A stretch of DNA of 43,174 nucleotides from Nitrospirota bacterium (GTDB lineage Bacteria > Nitrospirota > Thermodesulfovibrionia > UBA6902): positions 1-43,174 of the forward strand of contig JACRLN010000041.1 of assembly GCA_016215115.1 (NCBI GenBank), written 5' to 3'. The notes beneath the pieces are model-generated. The model did no database searches. It saw nothing but the letters and a program-made list of their open reading frames with translations, and was not told where the DNA came from. Shown piece after piece: positions 98-7,162 of this stretch; the stretch's first letter is position 1; every line of letters begins with the position of its first letter. The translations under genes were made by a program, and so were the position numbers.

Positions 98-239
98 GAC
101 AACGTGGGAAGTAGTAAAGCTCAGTGAATCGAACCACTGAATGACTTCAAAGAGCAATAAAACTGATTTGCAAAACTCAAACTATCACCTGCCCAAAAAG
201 CGCCGTGTGGTTCGATTTCACTGCAGCGCATGGTTAGAC
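98..239 (-). repeat. attC-like recombination site (partly degenerate)
   Basis: Read on the minus strand, the site begins right after the cassette gene's stop with GTCTAAC (239-233), which fits the attC consensus RYYYAAC. A long inverted repeat follows: CAGTGAAATCGAACCAC (223-207) pairs with GTGGTTCGATTCACTG (137-122). One arm carries a single unpaired A, as extrahelical bases do in attC hairpins. The total length of about 140 nt is at the upper end for attC. The distal core is poor: the expected GTTRRRY appears only as GTTGTC near 103-98, so this half may have decayed. It could alternatively be an ordinary terminator-like hairpin, but its place opposite GTTAGAC at the other cassette end argues for attC. 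Confidence 0.55.
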
Positions 240-243
240 ATTT

Positions 244-1263
244 TTATTCTTCAATAAAACTCTTCAAAGTAATAATTTCCGGCAACCCATCTGTATTTTC
301 TAAATCATTATCCCAGCAAACAATGTAATCACAACCAGTCTTATCGTGCCCGTGAGATATAAAAGAACTTGCAACTACTTCAAACTCTATCTTTTTGGTA
401 TCTCTGTTTGAGTCCATTACGATAGCGTCTGGAAATTCATTTCGGATCTTTATGATATAAGGGAATCCCATGTCTCTATGAAAAAGAGAAAACAAGTAGA
501 CAACTTCTTGCTCATACTCAGGCTCAAATAAAATTCCTATCGAAGACAATGGCTTATTTAGCTTAAATTGAGACGAAGCAATTTTTTCTGGCGTTAAATT
601 CTCATATAGAAATTTGGCAAATAATGCATTGTTCCATCTTCTTAAATCAGCCTGAGAATTCTTGAAAGACAGTAGAGCTTTTTGTAATACCTCAAATTGT
701 TTCCCAACAGATAACATTTGAAATGATTTGCTAAATAATTCGTAGGACAGCTTCCCATAATCAACATTTAACTGATTACAGAATTGTTCAAGATGATTTG
801 TGCTCAATATGGGTAGAAAATCATCAGGGTAATAACAATATACAATTTTCTTGGCTATATTTTTATCACCGCCGAACCATTTAATCTTTTCCCACTCAGC
901 ATCAATTTTATCAGAAACTGATAAATCATCTTTTACAACAGTCTTCAATAAGTTAATAAATTTATCAGGGTTATCTCTGGCATTCTCTGCATAGAAAGCA
1001 TTACCAACACGAATTCTACCAAGGTCTTTCAATCCAAACTCGATATAATATAGAAAAGTTTTGTTATTGCCTTTCTGATATATAGCACTAGAAACTAATT
1101 TATCTATTTCTCCTGGTTTATCACGGAAAGGGAACAGTTCCACAAAATCGTCCAATTTCCGTAATGCGTCTACAACCGTACCTTTATTGTCAGTCTCATA
1201 TTGTTTTATATCATAATCAGTTAAGTTGAACATAGTGTTATCGCCAAAATGCTGCGTAGGCAA
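244..1263 (-). CDS. Integron cassette protein, possible PD-(D/E)XK nuclease-like, function unknown
   Basis: This 339-aa protein is the only gene in the first cassette. I do not recognise a named family for the first 230 residues, which are helical-looking and rich in aromatic and charged residues. The C-terminal part (about 265-325) has a predicted strand order FPDAIVMDSN...KKIEFEVVASSF...HGHDKTGCDYIVCWDND. The acidic residue after PDA and the E-x-E pair in a hydrophobic strand recall a PD-(D/E)XK nuclease core, although no clear lysine follows. The listed start is a TTG placed almost on top of AAAGGAGA. An ATG at 1233 would give 329 aa but has no clear ribosome site. The gene reads away from the integrase, as cassette genes do. 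A defence or nuclease role is speculative. Confidence 0.65.
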   Translation of the reverse strand: MPTQHFGDNTMFNLTDYDIKQYETDNKGTVVDALRKLDDFVELFPFRDKPGEIDKLVSSAIYQKGNNKTFLYYIEFGLKDLGRIRVGNAFYAENARDNPDKFINLLKTVVKDDLSVSDKIDAEWEKIKWFGGDKNIAKKIVYCYYPDDFLPILSTNHLEQFCNQLNVDYGKLSYELFSKSFQMLSVGKQFEVLQKALLSFKNSQADLRRWNNALFAKFLYENLTPEKIASSQFKLNKPLSSIGILFEPEYEQEVVYLFSLFHRDMGFPYIIKIRNEFPDAIVMDSNRDTKKIEFEVVASSFISHGHDKTGCDYIVCWDNDLENTDGLPEIITLKSFIEE

Positions 1264-1276
1264 TCTCCTTTCATAT

Positions 1277-1294
1277 GTCTAACAGATATTAGAC
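1277..1294 (-). other. attI-like core recombination site next to first cassette
   Basis: On the minus strand the 18 nt read GTCTAAT-ATCT-GTTAGAC. These are two inverted integrase-binding boxes with a 4-nt spacer, and the right box matches the GTTRRRY core cut after the G. The same box-spacer-box plan is seen in attI simple sites. The cassette starts at TTAGAC and runs left, and the integrase gene lies to the right and diverges, which is the normal integron order. A further inverted repeat, ACGGAAAG (1293-1300) with CTTTCCGT (1345-1352), lies just outside and could be accessory structure. Confidence 0.65.
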
Positions 1295-1717: not shown

Positions 1718-3043
1718 ATGACGTTCAATTCAAAGGGCGATAGCCGCGTTTTTACTGTAAAAAAAGACCCGTGGGCTGAATATTTTCATTTCGCATTAAA
1801 AAAAGGCGTTACTGGGAAAGACGCAAGATTTTATGTGCACCGTGCAAAGCGGTTCTTCGAGTATATCAAAAAGCCGTTACGCAACTGCACCGCAAAAGAT
1901 GTAAAAGCCTTCCTTGATAATCTTTCACATGACAGCGCTATCGAACCGTGGCAGGTAGAACAGGCGAGGGATGCGCTGAGATTATTGTACAGGGATTTTC
2001 TGAAAGTTTCGTGGGCTGTACAGAAGCCCGTTGGGGCAATTCATGAATTGCCCCAACAATCAGGATTGTCATCAGAAGAAACAGTGTCAGTCAACAGCGA
2101 AATATTCAAAAAGCTGCAGATTGAGATGCGCTTTCGTCATTATTCCATTCGCACAGAAGAGACATATATTCAGTGGGTGAGACGCTTTTTGTATTTCCAC
2201 AGAACAAGATCAGCAGAAGACCTTTCTGCAGGAGATGTGAAAGTATTCCTTGAACATCTGGCGGTAAAAAAACAGGTTTCGGCTTCTACCCAAAATCAGG
2301 CGCTCAATGCAATCGTATTCTTTTTCGATCAGGTAATGAAAAAAGATTTGGGCGAGATTGGCGACTTTACAAGGGCAAAGCGTCCGTTGCGTTTGCCTGT
2401 TGTACTTGCAAAAGAAGAAGCGGACAGATTGCTCGGCGCTCTGACCGGAATATATTCATTGATGGCCGGACTGCTGTACGGAAGCGGATTGAGGATTATG
2501 GAGTGTGTGCGTTTGAGGGTAAAGGATATTGACTTTGCGCAAAATCAAATAATCGTCCGTGACGGAAAAGGACAGAAGGATCGTATAACTATCCTCCCGA
2601 AGCGTTTTCATCAGCCGCTCAAAGAGCGGTTGGATTTTGTAAAAAGCTTGCATGAAGAAGACCTTGCAAAAGGTTTTGGAGAAGTTTATCTATGGCTATC
2701 TATTGAACACAAGTACAAGAACGCCGCAAAAGAATTTATATGGCAGTATGTTTTCCCTGCCAATAATTTATCAGTGGATCCCCGAAGCGGTAAGGTTCGC
2801 CGTCATCATATAAATGAGAGCGCTCTGCAGAAAGAATTAAAGAAAACTGTTCAAACACTGGGTATCAATAAAAAAGTTAGCTGTCACACACTTCGTCATT
2901 CATTCGCCACGCATCTTCTTGAGAATGGCTACGACATTCGCACTGTGCAGGAATTACTTGGACATTCTGACGTATCTACAACTATGATCTATACGCACGT
3001 TTTAAACACGCCGGGGCTGGCAGTCAGGAGTCCGGTGGATTGA
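1718..3043 (+). CDS. intI: Integron integrase (tyrosine recombinase)
   Basis: The protein recombines attI and attC sites to capture cassettes. All catalytic residues are visible: R259 ([13 protein letters not shown]), H390 and R393 ([13 protein letters not shown]), H416 (LLGHSD) and the nucleophile Y425 (TTMIYTH). Residues about 315-368 carry the extra segment that separates IntI from other tyrosine recombinases, including WQYVFPA, DPRSG and RRHH. The C-terminus VRSPVD is also typical. At 441 aa it is longer than class 1 IntI (about 337 aa), because an additional SAM-like core-binding domain (about 18-96) precedes the usual one (about 128-212). The linker at about 104-115 ([10 protein letters not shown]) is encoded by a perfect 28-bp palindrome, 2030-2057, so a mobile short repeat has landed in frame. 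AGGAGGGG precedes the ATG. Confidence 0.93.
2030..2057. repeat. Perfect palindromic repeat inside intI
   Basis: A 28-nt perfect palindrome with outer arms GTTGGGGCAATTCA and TGAATTGCCCCAAC. It resembles the other window palindromes that end in GCCCCTAC. It encodes [10 protein letters not shown] in the linker of the integrase, between its two core-binding domains. Just before it, GGGCT (2013-2017) and AGCCC (2025-2029) form a second small hairpin. Confidence 0.8.
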
Positions 3044-3049
3044 AAAAAC

Positions 3050-3118
3050 AGCTTTCAGCTGTCAGCTATCAGCGAACAGCAAAGAATAAAAGCAGTCAGC
3101 GGTCAGCTCAAAAAGCAG
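3050..3118. repeat. Degenerate CAGCT-word repeats after intI
   Basis: Tandem variants of CAGCTGTCAGCTATCAGC follow the integrase stop. They are near inverted copies of words just upstream of intI (1669-1702) and recur at 15570-15603. They fit the window-wide class of roughly 7-nt-period arrays rather than an integrase-specific boundary. Confidence 0.6.
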
Positions 3119-3131
3119 GGACTAAGGATTA

Positions 3132-3461
3132 TTAAACCTTTACCTCTATTCCGCTTCTCGTTATCTCATCGAGAATAGTTCCGCGCTCAATTTTCTTTAA
3201 TTGAGACGGAGAAAAACCCAGTACCTCTATTGGATATGGGATTCCCCTGGCTGCCCTGCCAAGGTATCTTGCCCTTTCCCACAAATCCATCTTTTCAAAA
3301 TCTTTGGATATAACAGCAATATCAATATCACTATCCTCATTAAAAGTCCCTTTAGCCTGAGAACCGAATATAATTACTTTTTGGACATCGATTCCAAGCG
3401 ATTCAAGATTTCGAATATATCTCGAAACTACTGTTTTAATCTTCTGTCTTGTCTGAGCCAT
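3132..3461 (-). CDS. MNT-type nucleotidyltransferase-fold antitoxin
   Basis: This 109-aa protein has the minimal nucleotidyltransferase motif GSQAKGTFNEDSDIDIAVIS at about residues 33-52. It contains the GS pair and the D-x-D metal-binding aspartates. Such MNT proteins pair with HEPN proteins; in characterised pairs the MNT partner can neutralise HEPN by AMPylation. Its ATG lies inside the end of the upstream HEPN gene (34-nt overlap), so the two are co-translated, HEPN first. Activity of this pair is inferred from the family, not shown. Confidence 0.85.
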   Translation of the reverse strand: MAQTRQKIKTVVSRYIRNLESLGIDVQKVIIFGSQAKGTFNEDSDIDIAVISKDFEKMDLWERARYLGRAARGIPYPIEVLGFSPSQLKKIERGTILDEITRSGIEVKV

Positions 3462-3820
3462 CTTAAAGTTTTCCTCGTCATACTATAAACTTCTTCCGCC
3501 TTATTAAGGTTAAAATCTTTTGATATCTTCTTTAAGTCTTCGGGATATCTCGTCACAATGCTAACATTATCAATCTTGTCAATGAAGTCCTGAATATCAT
3601 CAGGAAATTGTATTGATATTTTTTGAGATAGATAAAGAAGACTGTGCGATTTTGGAGGAAGTTCCTTTATTTCCGTAGAAATAACAGCCTTAATCATTTT
3701 CTCAATTGCAAGGTGACACATAAAAACAACATAAATATACCTTTTGGATTTCAACATTGCTTCTGCAGTCTTCAAATCATAGTTAGACGTTGCCATCCAG
3801 TTTTTTGTAGCATTTGTCAT
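3428..3820 (-). CDS. HEPN domain protein, probable toxin partner of MNT protein
   Basis: From MTNATKNW the protein has about 130 aa and a HEPN pattern: W..A..DLKTAEAMLK, then CHLAIEKMIKAV, then a helix ending in TRYPED. I chose this ATG because upstream in-frame residues (SLAKKGSYSPR) are encoded by a short repeat (about 3862-3905) and are not HEPN-like. An ATG six codons earlier is also possible. HEPN proteins are often RNases with an R-x4-6-H motif; I do not see a clean one, so catalysis is uncertain. It is the upstream gene of the pair. Confidence 0.8.
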   Translation of the reverse strand: MTNATKNWMATSNYDLKTAEAMLKSKRYIYVVFMCHLAIEKMIKAVISTEIKELPPKSHSLLYLSQKISIQFPDDIQDFIDKIDNVSIVTRYPEDLKKISKDFNLNKAEEVYSMTRKTLRWLRQDRRLKQ

Positions 3821-3859
3821 AGATATATAAAATATCATAACCTGTATATTTAGACAATA

Positions 3860-3906
3860 ATTGGGGCGAGGAGAGTAGCTCCCCTTCTTTGCTAAAGAGG
3901 AGGGCC
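3860..3906. repeat. Short palindromic repeats upstream of nifU
   Basis: The stretch includes GGGGCGAGGAGAGTAGCTCCCC followed by CTTCTTTGCTAAAGAGGAGG, two overlapping inverted repeats of the kinds found elsewhere in the window. They separate the leftward HEPN gene from rightward nifU. Confidence 0.5.
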
Positions 3907-3947
3907 GCCTTGACAACAAAAACACGCTGTGTTAATAAATAAACACC

Positions 3948-5944: not shown

Positions 5945-7162
5945 TTACAAATACATCTCGGGTTTGATACCAAGCTTCTCCGGTGATTCGTAACTGACGA
6001 TCCTGTCTTCGCCGCTTTTGCCTGAAGGCTGCGAAAGGTCCAGGTCATAAGGGAGCCTTAGAAAACTTCCATTTTTTGTGTTATAAACAATACGGACCAC
6101 AGGATGTAACAGGCTTTTCTCACCATGTTGAATAACCACTCCAACCATACCGCTTTCCATCCGGACTAATGTGCCAACAGGATAAATCCCCATACAGCAG
6201 ATAAATTGCTGAACCAAACTCCTGTCATAATGGTAACTGCTCCATTCGTAGAGCTTCTTTAATACATCGGTAGGCAGATATTTATTTTGATAACACCTTT
6301 TAGACGTCATTGCGTCATATACATCTACAATAGCCGTCGCCCTGGCGTAATAAGATATTTCTTCCCCTTTTAAACCGAGCGGATAACCGGTCCCGTCAAT
6401 ACGTTCATGATGCTGGGCCGCCAGAGTCAAAGCGCTGTCAGATATACCGTGAGTTTGTTCAAGCAGGGTCCGGCCGTACTCTGCATGTTTCCTCATCATC
6501 TCCAGTTCCTTTTCCGTTAACTTTTCTTCCTTGTTAAGGATCGCCTGAGGGACTATCATCTTCCCGACATCATGAAGCAGCGCCCCCATGCCGACCTCTT
6601 TTAACAGAGGGACCTCAAACCCGATATGTTTTCCAAAAGATATCATGAGCACTCCGACGCTCACAGAATGCATATATGTATATTCATCCTTTGTCTTTAT
6701 CCTTCCAAGACTGATAAGGGCCTCCTGATTGCGGAAGATCGAATCAATCATTTTATCTACAACTTGTCCGGCTTCTTCCGTCTTGATCTGTTTTCCGAAT
6801 CTTATGTCCTCCATTATGTTATGTATCGTTTTTTTCGCCTCGGTTTTAATCTCCTTTGCCTTAATAAATTCTTCCTGAAGGGAAACAGTATACCTGTGCG
6901 CCTTTTCCTGTCCAGCAATCCTGTTGATTTCAGTCTGAAGCTCCTGCCTGACTTCATCTTCTGTCGGCGCACCGCCAACATCATATCCCTTGTCAGTATC
7001 AATATAAATTTCCCGGATGCCGTAGTCGATAGCCTTTTTAATACTCTGCTCGTCATGGATTTTCATGCTGTTAGTCAAGAAAGGATGGTTCATCCAGCCG
7101 CAGTTAAAATCGTGGATAAACATTCCCTGCTTCAATTGTTCAACTTTAATTTTCTTAATCAT
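5945..7162 (-). CDS. HD-GYP domain protein, probable cyclic-di-GMP phosphodiesterase
   Basis: The 405-aa protein begins with a DUF3391-like region (about 1-130) and continues into an HD-GYP domain. The HD pair is at H197-D198 (LLHDVGK), and the signature HHERIDGTGYP lies at 251-261, so both motif groups for a working phosphodiesterase are present. No membrane segment is visible. It overlaps the upstream histidine kinase by 8 nt and closes a leftward operon with the kinase, prepilin peptidase and a coiled-coil protein, which points to surface or pilus behaviour tied to cyclic-di-GMP. The link to pili is inferred from neighbours only. Confidence 0.9.
   Translation of the reverse strand: MIKKIKVEQLKQGMFIHDFNCGWMNHPFLTNSMKIHDEQSIKKAIDYGIREIYIDTDKGYDVGGAPTEDEVRQELQTEINRIAGQEKAHRYTVSLQEEFIKAKEIKTEAKKTIHNIMEDIRFGKQIKTEEAGQVVDKMIDSIFRNQEALISLGRIKTKDEYTYMHSVSVGVLMISFGKHIGFEVPLLKEVGMGALLHDVGKMIVPQAILNKEEKLTEKELEMMRKHAEYGRTLLEQTHGISDSALTLAAQHHERIDGTGYPLGLKGEEISYYARATAIVDVYDAMTSKRCYQNKYLPTDVLKKLYEWSSYHYDRSLVQQFICCMGIYPVGTLVRMESGMVGVVIQHGEKSLLHPVVRIVYNTKNGSFLRLPYDLDLSQPSGKSGEDRIVSYESPEKLGIKPEMYL

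Follow-up and report, generated by a model that had tools for sequence, protein, structure and literature searches.

The window analysed here is a whole contig of 43,174 bases, which cuts off a cassette array at base 1. Close to this edge lies a gene that the first-pass annotation described as an unrecognised integron cassette gene with a possible nuclease-like C-terminus, and whose location on the minus strand it missed. On that strand an open frame spans exactly positions 244–1263; read on the plus strand, the same positions contain many stops. The frame stays open up to a TTG at 1263 (339 amino acids), while an ATG at 1233 with the stop at 244 yields 329 amino acids. The ATG is the likely start, because an archaeal homologue begins at about the same place. 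All three motif strings quoted in the annotation are found in the protein: PDAIV within FPDAIV (residues 267–272 in 329-residue numbering), EFEVVASS within KIEFEVVASS (281–290) and CDYIVCWDND (301–310).

The archaeal homologue, from an Archaeoglobaceae MAG, is 56% identical over residues 18–338 of the 339-residue frame (E 3.9e-122 for that genome). Hence, judged by this conservation, the frame is a real gene and no chance ORF. The archaeal copy is the sole other full-length copy found. With one full-length copy on each side, the two-domain pair (Table 1) therefore occurs in both bacteria and archaea.

Table 1. Features of the cassette gene and its surroundings (window positions).
Feature	Position	Strand	Basis
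Putative attC L' arm (forms a 19-bp stem with the L'' arm; two bases bulge out)	119..137	-	stem
Putative attC L'' arm	207..227	-	pairs with the L' arm
GTCTAAC (complement of GTTAGAC), putative attC R'' box just downstream of the gene	233..239	-	sequence match
Cassette gene, 329 aa from ATG (339 aa from TTG 1263)	244..1233	-	frame and homologue
C-terminal PD-(D/E)XK-like domain, residues 225-329, ExE variant	247..561	-	alignment, model, fold matches
H294-x-H296 (H296 in 11/11; H294 in 10/11, gap in L031)	346..354	-	C-domain alignment
E283-F284-E285, ExE in the usual ExK place, invariant 11/11	379..387	-	C-domain alignment
P268-D269, 'PD' of the motif, invariant 11/11	427..432	-	C-domain alignment
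E241, helix glutamate, invariant 11/11	511..513	-	C-domain alignment
N-terminal putative sensor domain, residues 1-223, PD-T4-1/McrB type, all-helical model	565..1233	-	PADLOC, homologues, model
GTTAGAC immediately upstream of the gene, putative core site at the 5' end of the cassette	1277..1283	-	sequence match
Gene for the integron integrase, transcribed away from the cassette gene	1718..3043	+	TIGR02249, 464 bits, E 2.6e-139

The gene takes the first cassette position, head-to-head with the integron integrase. The stem and core sites beside it make a probable, not a proven, attC. No R' box is seen beyond the stem, where one would be expected, and the hairpin energy is unexceptional (z -1.47; 14 of 200 shuffles fold equally well). 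The window shows no enrichment of GTTRRRC (25 observed vs 31.7 expected), and a scan of the own genome with one canonical attC pattern gives 0 matches, the reversed control 1. For positions 1–2000 Rfam returns three chance matches, all sub-threshold. At the archaeal locus (L004) a single GTCTAAC (751–757) lies distant from the gene (5977–6972). The integrase, core sites and stem agree with the annotated cassette status, but the R' box does not appear.

The integrase itself has 441 amino acids. Its best TIGR02249 stretch begins at residue 130, leaving an N-terminal extension of about 129 residues that resembles an extra core-binding (SAM-like) domain (window 1718–2100). Where the extension gives way to the usual integrase, the coding frame contains GGGGCAATTCATGAATTGCCCC, a perfect 22-bp palindrome (2033–2054). 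It has 52 sites in the own genome at up to two mismatches (reversed control 0) and occurs once in the window and not in shuffles, a repetitive palindromic element within coding sequence. Short AGCTGACAGCTG-like repeats, seen by eye, flank the integrase gene on both sides (1660–1710 and 3045–3115).

Beyond the integrase, an NTP_transf_2 nucleotidyltransferase gene and a HEPN gene overlap by 34 bases on the minus strand (3132–3925), probably an MNT-HEPN toxin-antitoxin pair. They are the only defence-type genes near the cassette gene in the window. Integron cassettes often carry toxin-antitoxin genes, and defence genes are known as integron cargo.

The C-terminal domain

The C-terminal domain of about 105 amino acids is predicted to fold as a PD-(D/E)XK core, nearest to NucS/EndoMS. 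The model (114 amino acids, 11 sequences) has a pLDDT of 86.8, a pTM of 0.80 and the helix-strand order alpha-beta-beta-beta-alpha-beta. The top Foldseek match is the Pyrococcus abyssi repair nuclease 2vld, which we take to be NucS (E 0.013, prob 0.99); all matches have E values above 0.001. With VIA, EndoMS/NucS again comes first (Z 7.3 over 85–86 residues, rmsd 2.8–2.9, 13–16% identity), followed by AF1548 (6.1), VRR_NUC and SdaI (5.6), LlaBIII and 3dnx (5.5), I-Ssp6803I and MspJI (5.0), and FAN1 and Hjc (4.9); all these values lie below 8, the tool's caution line, and can reflect common arrangements. Going by their titles, most rows are PD-(D/E)XK-type nucleases. The nuclease-like C-terminus of the annotation is thus borne out by the predicted core, and the structure prediction and fold search that it had proposed did not yield a fold unrelated to PD-(D/E)XK.

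From NucS/EndoMS, the nearest solved fold, the domain differs not only in its low identity. The window protein has no NucS N-terminal domain, and it carries ExE in place of the ExK of NucS.

This missing lysine, already remarked on in the annotation, is general: Glu stands at position 285 in all 11 aligned copies, which come from bacteria, archaea and two viral contigs. By this alignment the loss is a family trait and not damage to the window copy. The same 11 sequences (alignment A4, which underlies all invariance counts) also keep E241, P268-D269, E283-F284, F291, H296, D302 and V305-C306-W307, among others. Left out of the alignment are a copy with a stop inside the domain (L010), one with the tail only (L013), a match at E 6.3e-4 (L036) and two divergent relatives (L017 and L020), both of which retain ExE and HxH, L020 with TD for PD. 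The lysine of (D/E)xK varies between PD-(D/E)XK families, and BamHI is a true nuclease that uses ExE.

Libraries hold no significant model for the domain: Pfam, NCBIfam and PADLOC, run on all 11 members, return chance-level entries (PDC-M63A, E 0.012, one member; DUF6772, E 0.089, one; Staph_FadB, E 0.14, two). Among four full-length proteins, PHROGs gives one weak match outside the domain (L005, E 0.0071). Searched by sequence with both domains, the PDB yields nothing significant (best E 0.21, 1.9 and 0.74). Predicted viral structures match the C-terminal domain weakly (best E 0.024), several of them being nucleases.

The N-terminal domain

The annotation overlooked a recognisable N-terminal domain, and it is this domain that points to function. 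The PADLOC model for PD-T4-1 (PDLC04021) matches it at E 2e-9 (residues 135–237 of the 339-residue frame) and matches the archaeal homologue at E 1.1e-6. The own genome encodes a full-length PD-T4-1 with a NOV_C C-terminus (L039, 8012–10411; 229.5 bits), which is 27% identical over residues 49–227 (E 3.5e-4) and adjoins a Shedu SduA gene (362.8 bits). Within the phylum the PD-T4-1 family model matches 7 of 295 genomes, only three of them over the N-terminal part, and among the controls it matches 1 of 14; the N-domain profile has matches in 4 of 345 genomes.

The second link leads to McrBC. Searched with the full protein, 72,556 plasmid records give one match, an Acaryochloris AAA ATPase (26% identity, E 4e-4) adjoining McrC. 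Using the N-domains of PD-T4-1 and of L024, we also find ATPases of Marinomonas and Acinetobacter baumannii, and with that of L024 one of Acinetobacter sp. NCu2D-2, each beside McrC. The domain thus heads an AAA ATPase directly beside an annotated McrC in four of the eight plasmid records inspected, with Acaryochloris matched directly by the window protein and the other three indirectly. Of the remaining records, one has a Peribacillus ATPase with an unnamed gene after it, one a Salmonella DUF3883 gene and one a short Sinorhizobium gene that is not annotated as an ATPase; in the fourth, from Klebsiella, the stretch is unannotated, and the N-domain and GTPase parts occupy separate frames.

These matches indicate that the N-terminal domain is remotely homologous to the N-terminal domains of PD-T4-1 and of McrB-type ATPases beside McrC. 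A KFGIY-like segment present in 13 other aligned members is absent from the window and archaeal copies. The same domain also heads a protein at L028 (775–1977, minus), whose other, nuclease-looking C-terminus (AFEIESTTS) has no Pfam match at E 0.1, a further unnamed cutter partner.

The structural model of the N-terminal domain (223 amino acids, 7 sequences) is all helical, with a pLDDT of 85.9. Among the 46 VIA rows with Z of at least 2, 31 are HhH-GPD DNA glycosylases and three others represent DUF2419, a queuine salvage enzyme, with a top value of Z 6.5 (rmsd 4.2 over 155 residues) among all rows; the rows were preselected by Foldseek, many repeat one enzyme, and helical models reach such or higher Z by chance. 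The rows that we take to be HhH-GPD glycosylases are Ogg2, MagIII, EndoIII, Mag1/2, OGG1, AGOG, MutY and AlkA. The best Foldseek match is MjOgg (E 0.72). By eye, the segment IKWFGGDKNIAKK...LPILSTNHL resembles the HhH...(V/I)DxH segment of Ogg2, except that another residue stands in place of the Asp; at the position of the catalytic Asp, matched by eye only, the domain would have T, E, P or K.

Profile-profile comparison with Ogg2 and EndoIII gives probabilities of 0.1–0.3 percent in five of five comparisons, with 7 and then 15 sequences, whereas the positive control, Ogg2 against EndoIII, scores 92 percent and an integrase, as the negative control, 0.2. Pfam finds no glycosylase or HhH match in the seven members of the domain alignment (A8). 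We do not adopt the glycosylase fold as a conclusion because of the chance Z of helical models, the null profile comparison and the lack of a Pfam HhH match.

We keep it as a tentative lead, more doubtful than credible. The N-terminal module of PD-T4-1, some McrB-type ATPases and the cassette enzyme may be a repurposed HhH-GPD fold, probably without the catalytic Asp, which would flip modified bases as a sensor and license NOV_C, McrB-McrC or ExE cutters. If true, type IV restriction would have a new class of reader for DNA modifications, here spread by an integron, and the fold would tell how the PD-T4-1, McrB and cassette systems see phage DNA. Uracil DNA glycosylases, a different superfamily, are described in excerpts of two papers as defending against T-even phages (PMC11078745; PMC13160076).

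Distribution and partners of the C-terminal domain

Among near relatives 3 of 101 genomes match, the own genome included, and the other two share the C-terminal domain only. The C-domain profile finds 7 of 295 genomes in the same phylum (own included; one, G293, with the tail only) and 4 of 294 in the phylum of the archaeal homologue. Searching 246 genomes of the latter phylum with the full protein gives five matches: the archaeal copy, two via the C-terminal domain, one via the N-terminal domain, and G520. We rejected the G520 match as chance, since it falls within an apparent acyl-CoA dehydrogenase (by eye).

Phages searched with the full protein give no match, and a C-domain query taken from L005 has no match at 1e-5 in either plasmids or phages. 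A direct search of viral contigs finds none, while profile A1 finds two loci there (L031 and L032). Each of these viral contigs also has an apparent D12-type methylase (by eye).

Across these copies the domain architectures indicate that the C-terminal domain is shuffled. In the own genome it also stands alone (L002). It follows homing-endonuclease-associated repeats (Pfam PF18780) in L005 (E 8.9e-11) and L016 (E 2.6e-20); by eye L009 and L011 have a similar layout, and L010 is interrupted by a stop. In L006, L012 and L032 it precedes an EVE-like segment, which is sub-threshold in Pfam for L006 (E 0.063) and L032 (E 0.073) and, lacking a Pfam match in L012, is placed there by similarity. One such protein belongs to a restriction-modification cluster (L006/L040) with the order Type II MTase (254.8 bits), Type II REase (324.3), C-domain plus EVE-like protein, D12 MTase (MTase_II, 220.7). 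At L020 (1399–2490, minus) the divergent relative, with an ELE motif, forms the end of a longer protein, which has no Pfam match at E 0.1; the part before it resembles GHKL/Hsp90 by eye.

The annotation had suggested looking for the gene near other defence genes. Relatives of each domain do occur in such surroundings, but the immediate neighbours of the two full-length copies include no recognised defence gene. For the archaeal copy, the adjoining gene has neither a Pfam match above the cut-off nor a PADLOC match.

Proposed function

On balance we favour reading the cassette gene product as a single-chain, type-IV-like restriction nuclease that joins a sensor of the McrB/PD-T4-1 type to a different cutter. 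The N-terminal domain, as a specificity module common to PD-T4-1 and McrB-type ATPases, would recognise something in the invading DNA, with a modified base as the likeliest candidate. The PD-(D/E)XK domain would then cut the recognised DNA using E241, D269 and E283-x-E285, with H296 assisting.

The literature on PD-T4-1, McrB, EVE-PD(D/E)XK enzymes and glycosylases suggests that the protein would recognise foreign DNA carrying modifications or other marks and then cut it. In the excerpts available, PD-T4-1 counts as a system of direct defence (PMC11618068), and a PD(D/E)XK nuclease is listed for it (PMC10952713). The screen that named the PD systems states that each candidate lowered plaquing of its selecting phage, in a text that does not name PD-T4-1 as such (PMC9519451). 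Further excerpts describe McrB N-terminal domains as specificity modules (PMC11090510) and EVE-PD(D/E)XK enzymes as sensor and cutter in one chain (PMC7641849). By analogy with these systems we infer that the cassette protein is enzymatically active, that modified phage DNA is its substrate and that it protects the host directly.

The position of the C-domain plus EVE-like relative, between the Type II MTase/REase pair and the D12 MTase, counts for the type-IV reading. The remoteness of the N-domain link (26–27% identity), the absent KFGIY-like segment and the absent catalytic lysine count against it, as do the modest Foldseek and VIA values of the C-terminal domain and the neighbours of the two full-length copies.

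The protein resembles each known system in part. With PD-T4-1 it shares a homologous N-terminal domain, the single gene and a C-terminal nuclease listed as PD(D/E)XK. However, the own-genome PD-T4-1 (L003) ends in a NOV_C/DUF3883-type domain with ExK (IEVKS; NOV_C E 1.2e-13), whereas the window protein has no NOV_C match and ends in the ExE family. The N-domain family is common to it and to AAA ATPases encoded beside McrC. In contrast to McrBC, it has no AAA+ GTPase domain match and its cutter is fused straight to the sensor; no McrC lies beside it up to the contig start at base 1, the nearest genes being intI and the HEPN/MNT pair. EVE-PD(D/E)XK enzymes, as far as the excerpt describes them, likewise combine sensor and PD-(D/E)XK domain in a single chain (PMC7641849), and the EVE-like segments of L006, L012 and L032 add to the likeness, but the sensor of the window protein is of the PD-T4-1/McrB type, not EVE.

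The partners of the C-terminal domain also suit another reading, which we consider unlikely: a sequence-specific (type II or homing-like) endonuclease, in which the mobile C-terminal domain cuts a fixed sequence and the N-terminal domain reads sequence instead of modification. The homing-associated repeats, the Type II cluster and the homing enzyme I-Ssp6803I among the fold matches all fit it. Yet the window protein has no match to the homing repeat family, no recognised methyltransferase gene adjoins the cassette gene, and the N-terminal domain is of the type found in McrB and PD-T4-1. Both of these act without a partner methylase.

Less probable still is that the C-terminal domain is a catalytically dead PD-(D/E)XK fold serving in DNA binding or dimerisation. 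Every relative aligned over the motif lacks the lysine, as a dead family might, but dead copies would be expected to lose D269, E283, E285 and E241 as well, all invariant in 11 of 11, and some true nucleases such as BamHI use ExE. It is most improbable that the protein is a toxin or cassette-stabilising nuclease acting on host DNA, a role that the frequent toxin-antitoxin cassettes could suggest, given that no second ORF of at least 50 amino acids lies between the two putative core sites and that the sensor domain points to target selection.

As a type-IV-like nuclease, the fusion is probably a previously undescribed anti-virus enzyme; among the open-licence papers that literature searches brought up, no title or abstract opening describes this fusion or this C-terminal domain. 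By the modules that they have in common, it ties PD-T4-1 defence to McrB specificity domains and to an uncatalogued nuclease family, and being encoded by one gene it provides a minimal version open to testing. For integrons in a lineage that has been little studied, it extends the possible defence cargo by a likely restriction-type enzyme.
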